Part shown: positions 41,765 through 47,164 of the stretch, in pieces
Position numbering within the stretch: the stretch's first letter is position 1
How the letters are laid out: each line of letters starts with the position of its first letter
Source: Candidatus Didemnitutus sp.
Lineage (GTDB): Bacteria; Verrucomicrobiota; Verrucomicrobiia; Opitutales; Opitutaceae
Direction of reading: 5' to 3'
Length of the DNA: 64,000 nt
Assembly (NCBI GenBank): GCA_017991595.1
Contig: JAGOQJ010000003.1
Span: 186,001-250,000, forward strand
Translations under genes and position numbers: made by a program
Notes under the pieces: model-generated
What the model was told of the DNA's origin: nothing
What the model saw: the letters and a program-made list of their open reading frames with translations, nothing else
Database searches by the model: none

Positions 41765-43519
41765 ATGAAAAAGTGGTCGCAGACTTTCATCCCCACGCTC
41801 AAGGAGAGCCCGGCCGACGCCGAGATTGCCTCGCACAAGCTGATGTTGCGCGCGGGTCTCGTGCGCAAGCTGGCCGGTGGTTTCTACACCTTCATGCCGT
41901 CGGGCCTGCGCGTGTTGCAGAAGATCATGGCCATCTGCCGTGAGGAGATGGACCGCGAGGGCGGCATCGAGCTTGCCATGCCGCACATCCATCCGGTGGA
42001 GAATTGGACCGATGGCCCGCGTTGGGCCGCGGCGCGCGAGATCATGTATCGCGTCGACCACGCCGGCGCCGGCAAGGGCCGCAGCAAGGAACCGGAGTTC
42101 GTCCTCGGGCCCACGCACGAGGAGGTCATCACGCCGCTCGTGAAGACCGAGATCACGAGCTACCGCGACCTGCCGAAGAATTTCTACCAGATCACGCACA
42201 AGTTCCGGAATGAGATCCGCCCGCGCTACGGCCTGATGCGCGCCCGCGAGTTCATCATGAAGGACGCCTACAGCTTCGACGCGACCGATGACGGCGCGAT
42301 CGAGAGTTACAACAAGATGAAGCGCGCCTACACGGCGTTCTTCTCGCGTTGCGGCCTGAAGACCATCCCGGTCGAGGCCGACACCGGCGTCATGGGCGGC
42401 AGTTTCTCGCACGAGTTCATGGTCCCGGCCCCGGTCGGCGACGACGACATCGTCTATTCCGACGCCGGCTACTCCGCCAACCGCGAGAAGGCCACCAGTG
42501 CGATCGTGCCCGCCGACCTCGCGGACGCCGCGCCCGCCGGCGCGATCGAGGAATTCGCCACGCCCGGCATCGTCACCATCGCCGCGCTCGAGGCCGCGCC
42601 TTACTCGGTGCCGGCGGACCAGCAGTTCAAGACCCTCGTCTATGTCGGCGACGGCAAGCTCTTCCTCGTCATCGTGCGCGGTTGCGACGACGTCGAGGAG
42701 GCGAAGCTCGGTTCGCTCGGCTTCCAGCTCTGGCGCGCCGCCACGCCGGAGGAAATCGAGCCCGTCATGGGGGCCAAGCCCGGTTCGCTCGGTGCCGTGA
42801 AGGGCACGATCAAGAACCCCGCCGCGCTCGCCGGCATCTTCGCCGACCACGCCATCCGCCTGATCGGCAACGGCACGACCGGCGCGAACAAGGACGGTTT
42901 CCACCTCCGCCACGTCAACGTCGCGCGCGACCTCGCGATCACGAAGTTCGGCGATTTCCGCCGCGTGCGCGAAGGAGAGCCCTGCCCGAAGTCCGGCCAG
43001 CCGCTGAAGATTGTGCGCGCCATCGAGGTCGGCCACGTCTTCAAGCTCGGCACAAAATACTCCGAGAAGTTCGGCGCGGTTTACACCGACGACAAGAAGC
43101 AGTCGCACCCGATGGTGATGGGCTGCTACGGCATCGGCATCAGTCGCACGCTGCAGGCGATCGTCGAGCAATCGAACGACGCCGACGGCATTCTCTGGCC
43201 GTGGAGCGTCGCGCCGTGGCAGGTGATCGTCGTCAATCTCGATCCGCAGGACGCCGCCGCCAGCGACGTCGCGCAACAGCTTGCCACCGCCGCCGAAGCC
43301 GCGGGTGCCGACGTGTTGATCGACGACCGCGCGGAGCGCCCCGGCGTGAAGTTCAAGGACGCCGACCTGATCGGCATCCCGCTGCGCCTCACCGTCGGTG
43401 GCAAGGGCCTGAAGGAAGGCATCATCGAGCTGAAGTGGCGCGCGCAGAAGGAAATCCGCAAGGTCCCGCTCGCCGAGGCCGCCGGTGTCATCGCCGAGGC
43501 CGTGCGCTCGCAGGCCTGA
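41765..43519 (+). CDS. proS: Prolyl-tRNA synthetase
   Basis: The protein has 584 residues, the bacterial (ProS type 1) length. Class II motif 2 lies in THKFRNEIRPRYGLMRAREF and motif 3 in MGCYGIGISRTLQAIVEQ. The insertion editing domain (~225-400, YbaK-like, FKTLVYVGDGKLFLVIVRGCDDVEE) that removes Ala from tRNA-Pro is present, followed by the anticodon-binding domain (~480-580). The start MKKWSQTFIPTLKESPADAEI is the conserved N-terminus. clpS follows 52 nt downstream. Confidence 0.97.
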   Translation: MKKWSQTFIPTLKESPADAEIASHKLMLRAGLVRKLAGGFYTFMPSGLRVLQKIMAICREEMDREGGIELAMPHIHPVENWTDGPRWAAAREIMYRVDHAGAGKGRSKEPEFVLGPTHEEVITPLVKTEITSYRDLPKNFYQITHKFRNEIRPRYGLMRAREFIMKDAYSFDATDDGAIESYNKMKRAYTAFFSRCGLKTIPVEADTGVMGGSFSHEFMVPAPVGDDDIVYSDAGYSANREKATSAIVPADLADAAPAGAIEEFATPGIVTIAALEAAPYSVPADQQFKTLVYVGDGKLFLVIVRGCDDVEEAKLGSLGFQLWRAATPEEIEPVMGAKPGSLGAVKGTIKNPAALAGIFADHAIRLIGNGTTGANKDGFHLRHVNVARDLAITKFGDFRRVREGEPCPKSGQPLKIVRAIEVGHVFKLGTKYSEKFGAVYTDDKKQSHPMVMGCYGIGISRTLQAIVEQSNDADGILWPWSVAPWQVIVVNLDPQDAAASDVAQQLATAAEAAGADVLIDDRAERPGVKFKDADLIGIPLRLTVGGKGLKEGIIELKWRAQKEIRKVPLAEAAGVIAEAVRSQA

Positions 43520-43571
43520 GCGCCGGCACCCAGTCGTGCTCATTCCCGTCCGCCCGCTTCGTTTCGCGCCC

Positions 43572-43871
43572 ATGGCCGAGACCAATCCGCATCATTCCCC
43601 GGCCGAGGCCACCGCAACCGCGACGGCCTTGCAGGACGCATGGCGCGTCGTCGTGCTGAACGACCCGGTGAACCTGATGTCCTACGTCGTGCTGGTCTTC
43701 AAAAAGGTGTTCGGCTTCGACGAGACCCGGGCACGCAAGCACATGCTCGAGGTCCACGAACAGGGCCGCTCCGTGCTCTGGGTCGGCGAACGCGAGCCGG
43801 CCGAGGCCTACGTCTTCACGCTGCAACAGTGGCATCTCACCGCGATCCTGGAGTCCGATGAAACGGGTTGA
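43572..43871 (+). CDS. clpS: ATP-dependent Clp protease adaptor ClpS
   Basis: The protein has 99 residues. After a short flexible tail comes the ClpS core: VVLNDPVNLMSYVVLVFKKVFGF, RKHMLEVHEQGRSVLWVGERE and AEAYVFTLQQWHLTAILE. ClpS delivers N-degron substrates to ClpA or ClpC; the D-P-V-N and M-L-E-V-H positions form the N-degron pocket. Start 43572 gives the normal N-terminus. Its last 14 nt overlap the next gene, implying coupled expression. Confidence 0.93.
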   Translation: MAETNPHHSPAEATATATALQDAWRVVVLNDPVNLMSYVVLVFKKVFGFDETRARKHMLEVHEQGRSVLWVGEREPAEAYVFTLQQWHLTAILESDETG

Positions 43872-44316
43872 GATCAAACTCAACCTCGACGCCGTGGCGC
43901 CGCTGCTCGATGCGGTGAAGTCCGCGGCCGACACGCTCGAGCCCCGGCTCGCCGTCGAGCCGCAGGTGCCCGAGCACGAGCCCGACTTCGCCGCCAGCTG
44001 GCGCGACGAACTGCTCGGCGGCCAGCGCAGCGATCTCGCGGTGCTGCTGGGCTTGTTCGGCAGCGAATTTTTCGCGACCGGCATCATCGTGCTGGATGCG
44101 CAGAACGGCGAATCGGTGCTGCGGGCCTGCGCGGCGGTGCGGCTGCGGTTGCGCGAGTTGCATCTTCGCGGTTTGGATGACGGCAGCCTCGAGAGCGGGG
44201 AGGTCGAGTTGGAAGAGTTGCCCGAGGCCCAGAGTCGGGCCTTCGCGGCCTACGTGTTCCTCGCGACTTTACAGGAAGTCATCATCCAGCATCTCGACCC
44301 GACGGAGATGGACTGA
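43858..44316 (+). CDS. Acidic protein of unknown function overlapping clpS
   Basis: The protein has 152 residues, is strongly acidic and mostly helical, with no signal or membrane segment. A helical core (RLRLRELHLRGLD, FAAYVFLATLQEVIIQHL) stands out. In Actinobacteria clpS is often followed by a DUF2017 gene of similar size; the arrangement here is the same, but I cannot confirm homology by eye. The 14-nt overlap with clpS suggests a linked role, perhaps in Clp-dependent proteolysis. Confidence 0.8.
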   Translation: MKRVEIKLNLDAVAPLLDAVKSAADTLEPRLAVEPQVPEHEPDFAASWRDELLGGQRSDLAVLLGLFGSEFFATGIIVLDAQNGESVLRACAAVRLRLRELHLRGLDDGSLESGEVELEELPEAQSRAFAAYVFLATLQEVIIQHLDPTEMD

Positions 44317-44409
44317 ACGCCGCGACGCGCGCGACCGGGCGATGGAATCGGCCCCGGATTTTCCGCGACGTTCGCATTTGACGGAGCAGGGGGTAGGGGT
44401 AGGGTCGCA

Positions 44410-44595
44410 CCGACACCCTGCAGTGTTCGAGGTGCCTTCAATAACTGCTCTTTGCCTTTGTGATCATTTGGGAGCTGCTTTCACGCAGCGTGGATGCCAG
44501 GCCGTAAACCGGAAGGCAGAAGCGCGGCGAGCGGCGCCCACCTTAAACTAAAAAGGACATGAGCCTTTGGGCGCACGGCACAGGTGGGGTGTCAC
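44410..44595 (+). ncRNA. ssrS: Candidate 6S RNA
   Basis: This ~186-nt stretch lies in a 307-nt gap with no plausible coding frame. The two ends pair: GACACCC (44412-44418) with GGGTGTC (44587-44593), and inside that GTGCC with GGCAC. The 5' arm carries CTGCAGTGTTCGAGG, which resembles the conserved CTG..(G)TGTTCG element of 6S RNAs, and the 3' arm has an AGCCT..GGGCGCACGGCAC pattern like theirs. The length fits 6S RNA, which binds the RNA polymerase housekeeping holoenzyme. A T-rich tract follows at 44596-44602. The ends are approximate. Confidence 0.55.
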
Positions 44596-44623
44596 TCTTT
44601 TTCCCCTAACCCGCACACACATC

Positions 44624-44980
44624 ATGGAGAGACTGCCTTACTACCAACTGTTGCACATCCTGTCGCTGCTCGTCCTCACGGCGCACACGTTCATGGCCTT
44701 CGCCAATCCCGCGCCGGAGAACCGCAAGCGCACGATGATGGTCACGGGCATCGCGGCGCTGCTGATGTTCATCAGCGGGTTCGGCATGCTCACGATCAAC
44801 AAGATCCCTTTCGGCAGCACGCCGTGGATCTGGGTCAAGACTGCCTGCTGGCTCGGCGTCGCGGCGATGGCCGGCTTCGCTTACCGCAAGGCGCACCTGC
44901 GCGGAGTGTTGAGCCTCGTGACGCTCGTGCTCCTCGCGGTCGCGGTCGCGATGGTCTATTTCCGGCCGTTCTCCGGCTGA
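44624..44980 (+). CDS. Small integral membrane protein, unknown function
   Basis: The protein has 118 residues with four predicted membrane helices (~8-25, ~38-56, ~66-84, ~92-112) and short basic loops (PENRKRT, YRKAH). It distantly recalls small SirB2-like membrane proteins, but I do not claim membership. ATG 44624 follows the candidate 6S RNA by ~28 nt and was preferred over in-frame ATG 44567, which lies inside the RNA. The polymerase gene begins 9 nt after its stop. Confidence 0.75.
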   Translation: MERLPYYQLLHILSLLVLTAHTFMAFANPAPENRKRTMMVTGIAALLMFISGFGMLTINKIPFGSTPWIWVKTACWLGVAAMAGFAYRKAHLRGVLSLVTLVLLAVAVAMVYFRPFSG

Positions 44981-44989
44981 TCCCCGCCG

Positions 44990-47164
44990 ATGGGTGAGTC
45001 GCTGTGCGGCCTGTGGATCGACGAGGCGGGCCGCGCGCACGTTTGCGTGTCGACCGCCGACGGCGGTCGCACGGAACGCCTTGAGCCGTTCCGGCCCTTC
45101 GCTTGGCTGCCCGCCGCGCCGCCCCCATCGCCCGGCATCGCGGTGGAGCCGCTGCAGGGCGCGGGCGCCTTCGCCTGGCTGGCGCATGCGGAGGGCTTGG
45201 CGGTATTTGACGACTTCGTGCGCAGCGTGCGCGACGGCGGCGGCATCGATGTGCTCAAACCCTACGAGCACCAGTGGCTCGTGCAGCGCCGGGCACGGTT
45301 GTTTGCCGACCTGCCGTTTGCCGAGCTGCGCCGCTGCCAGCTCGACATCGAGACGGCGTCGGAGGTCGAGGGCGGATTCAGCGATGCCCAGCGCCCCGGC
45401 GACCGCGTGCTGGCGATCGGCCTGCAATGCGGCGCGCGCCGCGAACTGCTCACCCTGGCGGAGGAAACCGACGCCGCCGAGCGCGACCTGCTGCTGCGTT
45501 TCAACGCGACGCTGCACGAGATGGACCCCGACGTGATCGAGGGACACAACCTGTTCAAGTTCGACCTCGATTACCTGCGCCAGCGCGGCAAGCGCCACAA
45601 GGTGCCCTGCGCGTGGGGACGCTTCGGACTGAAGGCCGAGTTCCGCAACAGCCGCATGCGCGTGGCCGAACGCTGGATCGATTTCCCCCGTTGCGACATT
45701 CCGGGGCGCGCCGTCGTCGACACCTACCTGCTGGTGCAACTTTACGACATCACGACGCGCGAGATGACGTCGTATGGCCTAAAGGACGCGGCCGTCTATT
45801 TCGGTGTCACGCCCGAGTCCGGCGCCGGGCGCACCTACATCGACGGACACGGCATCCAGGACGAGTTCCGCCGCGACCGGGCCAAATTTCTCGCCTACCT
45901 CGGTGACGATCTGCGCGAGACGAAGGGCGTGGCCGACGTGCTGCTGCCGACCTATTTCGAGCAGGCGCGCGCCTTTCCGCTCATGCTGCAGGAGGCGGCG
46001 TTGCGTGGCACGGCGGGCAAGGTGGACCTGCTCTTCCTCGAGGAGTATTACCACGCGCGCGCGGCGTGCCCGGGGCCAGTGGAAATCGCCGGGTTCGAGG
46101 GCGGTTTCACGCGCAGTTTCCAGGAAGGCGTGTTCAAGCACGTGCTGCACTTCGACGTCGCGTCGCTCTACCCAAGCCTCCTGTTGCACATCGGACGTAA
46201 CCCGCGCGGCGACACTCTGGGCGTCTTTATCCCGCTGCTGCAGCGTCTGCGCGAGTATCGTCTGAAATACAAGCAGCTGGCGAAGACCGCGCCGACCGCC
46301 GCCGAGCGCGACGAGGCGCAGGCGCGGCAGCAGACCTTCAAGATCCTCATCAATTCCTTCTACGGCTACCTCGGTTTCTCCGGCGCGCGCTTCGGCGACG
46401 GCGAACTCGCCGCGGAGGTGACGCGCCGCGGCCGCGAGCTGCTGCAGGCGCTGATCGACGAGTTCGCGCGCCTCGGTTGCACCATACTCGAGGCCGACAC
46501 CGACGGCATTTACCTCTCCTCTGCCGCGCACCATGCGAATCCCGACGCCCTGCTCGCACAGGTGCAGCAGATCCTGCCCGCGGGCATCGAGCTGGAATTC
46601 GACGGCCGCTACGACGCGATGTTCTGCTACAAGGCCAAGAACTACGCGCTGGTCGCGGACGGCCAGATCACGCTCCGCGGCTCGGCGCTGCGCTCGCGTG
46701 GAATCGAACCGTTCCTGAAGCGCCTGAGCGACGAGATGATCGCCCACGTGCTCGGTGTCAGCACGCGTTCGCCTCTCGCCACGGTGGCGGAGTTGCGCGA
46801 GAAAATCCGCGCCCGCGAACTGCCCGTCGCCGAACTCGCGAAATCGGAGGCGCTGAGCCAGAATCCCGATGCTTACGAGCAATGGGTCGCGGGCGGCGGC
46901 AAACCCCGGCGCGCCTCGGCCGAGGCCGCGTTGCAGCTGCATCCGCGGCCTCGCATGGGCGAGCGCGTGACCTATTACATTGTCGCCCGGCAGAAGGGGC
47001 AGACGGCCGACTGGCAGCGGGCGCGCCCGCTCGCGCTGCACGATCCCGTCGCCGCGCCCTACGATCCTGTCTATTATTTGGAAAAAATCGACGACTGGGT
47101 GGAACGCTATGGACGTTTCGCGGGCATCGCGCCACAAGTCGACCAGCAGCAACTGCTGCTCTGA
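44990..47164 (+). CDS. polB: Family B DNA polymerase
   Basis: The protein has 724 residues. The 3'-5' exonuclease has ExoI CQLDIET (Asp119, Glu121) and ExoII-like EGHNLFKFDLDYL. The polymerase has motif A HFDVASLYPSLLL (Asp389), motif B KILINSFYGYLG and motif C EADTDGIY (Asp503, Asp505). All catalytic acids are present, so both activities should work. It is close in length to E. coli Pol II (783). Family B polymerases occur in only part of bacteria and usually serve repair or translesion synthesis; there is no LexA-type site that I can see. Confidence 0.92.
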   Translation: MGESLCGLWIDEAGRAHVCVSTADGGRTERLEPFRPFAWLPAAPPPSPGIAVEPLQGAGAFAWLAHAEGLAVFDDFVRSVRDGGGIDVLKPYEHQWLVQRRARLFADLPFAELRRCQLDIETASEVEGGFSDAQRPGDRVLAIGLQCGARRELLTLAEETDAAERDLLLRFNATLHEMDPDVIEGHNLFKFDLDYLRQRGKRHKVPCAWGRFGLKAEFRNSRMRVAERWIDFPRCDIPGRAVVDTYLLVQLYDITTREMTSYGLKDAAVYFGVTPESGAGRTYIDGHGIQDEFRRDRAKFLAYLGDDLRETKGVADVLLPTYFEQARAFPLMLQEAALRGTAGKVDLLFLEEYYHARAACPGPVEIAGFEGGFTRSFQEGVFKHVLHFDVASLYPSLLLHIGRNPRGDTLGVFIPLLQRLREYRLKYKQLAKTAPTAAERDEAQARQQTFKILINSFYGYLGFSGARFGDGELAAEVTRRGRELLQALIDEFARLGCTILEADTDGIYLSSAAHHANPDALLAQVQQILPAGIELEFDGRYDAMFCYKAKNYALVADGQITLRGSALRSRGIEPFLKRLSDEMIAHVLGVSTRSPLATVAELREKIRARELPVAELAKSEALSQNPDAYEQWVAGGGKPRRASAEAALQLHPRPRMGERVTYYIVARQKGQTADWQRARPLALHDPVAAPYDPVYYLEKIDDWVERYGRFAGIAPQVDQQQLLL

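Follow-up and report, generated by a model that had tools for sequence, protein, structure and literature searches.

A probable 6S RNA gene beside the sirB-like and polB genes of Candidatus Didemnitutus and its Opitutaceae relatives

6S RNA is a well-known small RNA which restrains the main RNA polymerase while bacteria are at rest. We analysed a 64,000-nt stretch of a Candidatus Didemnitutus genome (hereafter the window), in which the gap between a DUF2017 gene (end 44316) and a sirB-like gene (start 44624) very probably holds the 6S RNA gene (ssrS) of this cell, at 44412-44594 on the plus strand. We put the probability of this reading at about 96%, taking it to be an ordinary 6S RNA together with the transcription and polymerase cycle proposed below.

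The 6S match, its fold and its covariation

The original prediction had placed a candidate 6S RNA, a unit of about 186 nt, at 44410-44595 and had proposed a search with the covariance model RF00013. This search was positive. The model matched the plus strand at 44412-44594 over its full length (model positions 1-187 of 187) with 68.1 bits and an E value of 2.5e-11, which is 21.7 bits above the gathering cut-off of 46.4 bits. The match starts 2 nt inside the predicted start and ends 1 nt inside the predicted end, and its length of 183 nt is inside the ~180-200 nt expected of 6S RNA (RF00013). Between 44000 and 45000, no Rfam family besides RF00013 and no riboswitch family was matched on either strand at E values up to 1. 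RF00013 was the sole Rfam family over its cut-off in the entire window, in which no tRNA or tmRNA genes were found. A single RF00013 match, and no second copy, was seen in the host genome at E values up to 10, in an assembly of 2.88 Mb in 18 contigs that is 87% complete. At the same threshold, RF00013 matches were obtained in 8 of 14 control genomes, including an archaeon, and were over the cut-off in only 4 of them. Since control genomes match too, weak matches alone mean little; the match in the window is over the cut-off.

The single-strand fold of the RNA has a free energy of -79 kcal/mol (z = -2.8), and 1 of 200 dinucleotide shuffles was as stable. With so modest a z score, the fold alone would not decide 6S identity. 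Since G+C-rich inverted repeats fold well anyway, this value would also suit a palindrome that arose by chance in a gap rich in G+C, but the E value of 2.5e-11 and the compensatory changes in relatives, described next, already refute that explanation, and we leave it hardly any probability. We aligned the 30 best of the 90 family matches, which gave 29 distinct rows. Under the Rfam structure 81.4% of the 1411 pairing cells pair, compared to 38-45% for slid structures. Changes on both sides were observed in 26 of the 49 pairs, compared to 16.8 in shuffles (0 of 500 reached 26) and 13-17 in slid structures, and the covariation score was 0.218, where shuffles averaged 0.120 and no slid structure exceeded 0.097. 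The shuffle test is inflated by the relatedness of the family rows; the slid-structure control retains this relatedness, yet this control tends to be outscored by any structure that has been fitted to one of the members. For eight of the 49 pairs, pairing fails in most of the 29 rows (columns 11-183, 19-175, 43-156, 44-155, 70-127, 72-125, 74-124 and 85-116); the majority of the eight are at the ends of helices and at internal loops. RNAalifold, run without the Rfam structure, arrived at the same general rod; it predicted 43 pairs, and 20 of these show two-sided changes.

When the Rfam structure is transferred to the window sequence, 49 pairs receive letters, of which 44 are standard and five non-standard. 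The terminal stem, central bubble and apical arm are kept by covariation, which is mostly carried by the terminal stem and the apical arm. The terminal (closing) stem pairs 44413-44430 with 44575-44592 (plus strand), that is, RNA positions 2-19 with 164-181, which bears out the long-distance pairing of the ends that had been predicted. The predicted 5' arm element, CTGnnGTGTTCG, is present exactly at 44418-44429, where the 5' strand of the stem holds CTGCAGTGTTCG. In the window 15 of 17 terminal stem pairs are standard; in relatives 6 of the 17 are changed on both sides and 85.2% of cells are paired. Beside the central bubble, the Rfam structure pairs GCTCTTTGCCT (44447-44457, plus strand) with 44554-44564. 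This strand is near-invariant (at least 90% in 10 of its 11 columns of the family alignment), as would be expected of a product-RNA template; by analogy with E. coli and B. subtilis, it would be what the polymerase copies into product RNA (pRNA). The apical arm (helices 3-6 and loop, 44470-44539, plus strand) shows two-sided changes among the relatives in 7/7 pairs of helix 4 and 7/10 pairs of helix 3. The RNA is also nearly palindromic, such that loci read backwards still align with forward ones.

Promoter-like boxes, 3' end and occurrence of the gene

Comparison of the family loci revealed a -35-like element, TTGACG (44378-44383), and a -10-like element, TAGGGT (44400-44405), on the plus strand in front of the 6S gene. 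The spacer between them is 16 nt, and 6 nt separate the second box from the 5' end of the 6S. TTGAC was found within 60 nt upstream of the 6S gene in 29 of 30 family loci. The pair TTGAC and TAnnnT, for which spacers of 15-19 nt were allowed, was present in 27 of the 30, the window included, always with 16 nt, and in these 27 it ends 5-10 nt before the first base of the model. It is missing in three loci (L010, L016 and L028). In the flanks of the same family loci, the full pattern occurred in none of 1186 control windows and TTGAC alone in 39, these windows being mostly coding DNA and the pattern having first been read off the same alignment. The pattern was likewise missing from all 30 loci that belong to the phylum's other families. 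The spacing of the two boxes is sigma-70-like, and TAGGGT agrees with TATAAT at three positions only. A generic promoter scan near the 6S gene found no promoter, because the inner bases of TAGGGT are G.

Directly behind the 6S gene is a T-rich stretch with 7 T in 15 nt (44595-44609, plus strand). At least 7 T in 15 nt were found at this place in 21 of 30 family loci, compared to 2.2% of 5165 control stretches, which are mostly coding. Terminator-like matches behind the 6S gene were at chance level (1 versus 0.7 expected). The T-rich stretch may end most 6S transcripts.

RF00013 matches are widespread in the family. Among 100 Opitutaceae genomes, 88 had a match at an E value no higher than 0.01, and in 85 the score exceeded the cut-off; in a draw of 387 genomes from the phylum the corresponding numbers were 197 and 140. 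These counts are lower bounds, as stricter filters were used and at most 23 (family) and 6 (phylum) candidates per genome were scored; at these stricter filters, the remaining 12 family genomes gave no RF00013 match at E 0.01. Two matches each were seen in two family genomes (G060 and G066) and in one genome of the phylum draw (G441), and the other genomes with a match show one. One family locus, L010:618-799 (genome G070), has a 6S match of 66.5 bits, without the family promoter pattern and without any of the neighbours described below. Its sequence differs much from the other 29 loci, and it may be a foreign contig; it was kept in all counts and left out only from the nhmmer 6S profile.

These scores bear on whether the gene in the window could be a decayed, non-functional 6S copy. 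Its 68.1 bits are well short of the 100.7 bits of the best match in the phylum draw, and five of its pairs are non-standard. In the family, however, the best matches per genome run from 42.6 to 72.3 bits over the 88 genomes, so that the window's score is near the top; moreover, it is the sole copy found in its genome and it has promoter-like boxes. We consider decay to have next to no probability. Collectively, the family match, the covariation, the promoter-like boxes and the family-wide occurrence suggest that the 6S gene is very probably transcribed and working.

Gene neighbourhood and possible read-through

The order of the locus is proS-clpS-DUF2017-[6S]-sirB-like-polB, and all coordinates given here are on the plus strand. 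Upstream are clpS (43485-43871; PF02617, E 2.9e-19; its true start may be later) and the DUF2017 protein gene (43858-44316; PF09438, 27.5 bits against a cut-off of 25). Downstream, as had been predicted, are the genes of a small SirB-like membrane protein (44624-44980) and of a family-B DNA polymerase (polB, 44990-47164; PF00136 and PF03104). The SirB-like protein matches PF04247 with 27.3 bits (E 4.3e-6), below the cut-off of 30.9, and has no NCBIfam match. The polymerase is only 724 aa long and scores 105.8 bits against the NCBI cut-off of 570 for the best DNA polymerase II model; it may be a member of a divergent group of bacterial PolB enzymes. Among 60 polB relatives, the closest one comes from a Candidatus Didemnitutus MAG (97%). 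The others are assigned to Opitutaceae, Opitutia/Opitutae and Verrucomicrobia/Verrucomicrobiota, with Opitutus, Lacunisphaera, Oleiharenicola and Geminisphaera among the genera, and one is from a MAG labelled Akkermansia muciniphila.

We examined up to 1.5 kb on each side of the 6S gene in the 30 family loci. A sirB-like gene lies behind it on the same strand in 24, DUF2017 and clpS lie before it in 22 each, a polB start lies behind it in 15, and at least one of these four genes is present in 26. None of sirB-like, DUF2017, clpS, polB and proS was recognised near the 6S gene in 30 loci representing other families of the phylum (tblastn, E 0.001). Starting from polB, a 6S gene was found upstream in 49 of the 60 loci, some of which are cut by a contig end: within 0.8 kb in 48 and at 2.4 kb in L096. 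Four of the 60 loci have too little upstream DNA (0-213 bases). In another seven (L087, L091, L092, L102, L104, L109 and L110), nhmmer found no 6S gene despite at least 0.9 kb of upstream DNA, and a recheck with all of Rfam at E values up to 1 also gave no 6S, returning seven miRNA-family matches below their cut-offs. L087 and L104 have kept the sirB-like gene and polB without a 6S gene alongside by either search.

The location of the 6S gene beside sirB-like and polB is a recurrent Opitutaceae trait, and is therefore not odd. The original prediction had called the neighbourhood unlike that of proteobacterial ssrS, and so it proved: the window 6S gene is flanked by DUF2017 and sirB-like, and ygfA (5-formyltetrahydrofolate cyclo-ligase) is not next to it. 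As described in PMC9130861, 6S neighbours are conserved within taxa and not across bacteria, ygfA being common in Proteobacteria. Since no neighbourhood holds for all bacteria in that account (PMC9130861), ygfA is no defining feature of a 6S gene.

The sirB-like start codon in the window is 29 nt behind the 6S gene. Over the 24 family loci with this gene, the start codon closest to the aligned start is 11-118 nt behind the 6S gene (median 28.5), and this distance is short, 11-32 nt, in 14 of the 24 (the window, L003-L008, L013, L016, L017, L019-L021 and L027). Such proximity might also mean that we are dealing with a leader that acts in cis on the sirB-like gene, rather than with a free regulatory RNA. 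Against this, the full 6S model is matched and no riboswitch family at E values up to 1, six of the 30 family loci showed no recognisable sirB-like gene in up to 1.5 kb behind the 6S gene, and none of the five neighbours was recognised in the 30 further loci of the phylum. A cis-acting leader is hence very improbable, if slightly less so than the two alternatives considered above, and we retain a free 6S RNA.

A gap this short leaves no room for a separate promoter, so that in those species the sirB-like promoter would be inside or before the 6S gene. This suggests that the 6S and sirB-like genes are co-transcribed. In E. coli, ssrS and ygfA are co-transcribed, and the short gap between the 6S and sirB-like genes fits such a transcription unit. 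A more far-reaching proposal is that the Opitutaceae 6S promoter drives sirB-like-polB by read-through as one unit, from which processing releases the 6S RNA; we advance it tentatively and think it rather unlikely. If it were true, a small membrane protein, and perhaps a repair-type DNA polymerase, would be expressed in one unit with an RNA of stationary phase.

Proposed mechanism and comparison with known 6S RNAs

PMC8876501 describes 6S RNA as an open-promoter mimic that occupies the sigma-70/sigma-A holoenzyme and is released once the enzyme copies a short product RNA from it. Nothing in the sequence suggests that the window 6S RNA works by a mechanism other than that of its family. By this family model, the gene would be transcribed from its own sigma-70-type promoter and the transcript would fold into a rod with a central bubble resembling an open promoter. 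On growth arrest, this RNA would accumulate and occupy the housekeeping RNA polymerase holoenzyme. Once nucleotides are available again, the polymerase would copy the strand beside the central bubble into a short product RNA, upon which the helix next to the bubble would unfold and the enzyme be freed. Read-through past the 6S gene may in addition provide the sirB-like mRNA. That the RNA is transcribed, binds the polymerase, templates a product RNA and is under growth-phase control is here attributed to the window RNA by analogy with the 6S family.

These results indicate an ordinary 6S RNA in Opitutaceae, whose gene has recognisable promoter-like boxes and neighbours particular to the family. 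This raises no new question of principle; it aids annotation and provides a non-proteobacterial example in which co-transcription of 6S can be tested. The literature searched for 6S RNA with Opitutus or Verrucomicrobia contained no paper on 6S RNA of Opitutaceae, and we do not claim that 6S RNA of Verrucomicrobiota is unpublished.

Among known systems, Ms1 RNA of Actinobacteria is likewise a structured RNA, and one that binds RNA polymerase, but as described in PMC9130861 it is ~300 nt long and binds the core polymerase, whereas the window RNA has 183 nt and matches 6S. With 6S-1 RNA of Bacillus subtilis, the window RNA shares the rod with a central bubble and the expected product-RNA cycle, as set out for 6S-1 in PMC8876501; the phylum and the gene context are different, and the likeness considered here is one of general architecture. 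The closest counterpart in kind is 6S RNA/SsrS of the Escherichia coli ssrS type (RF00013), which the window RNA resembles in its 183 nt, its terminal stem with CTGnnGTGTTCG, its central bubble and its apical arm, and from which it differs in being flanked by proS-clpS-DUF2017 and sirB-like-polB, without ygfA.
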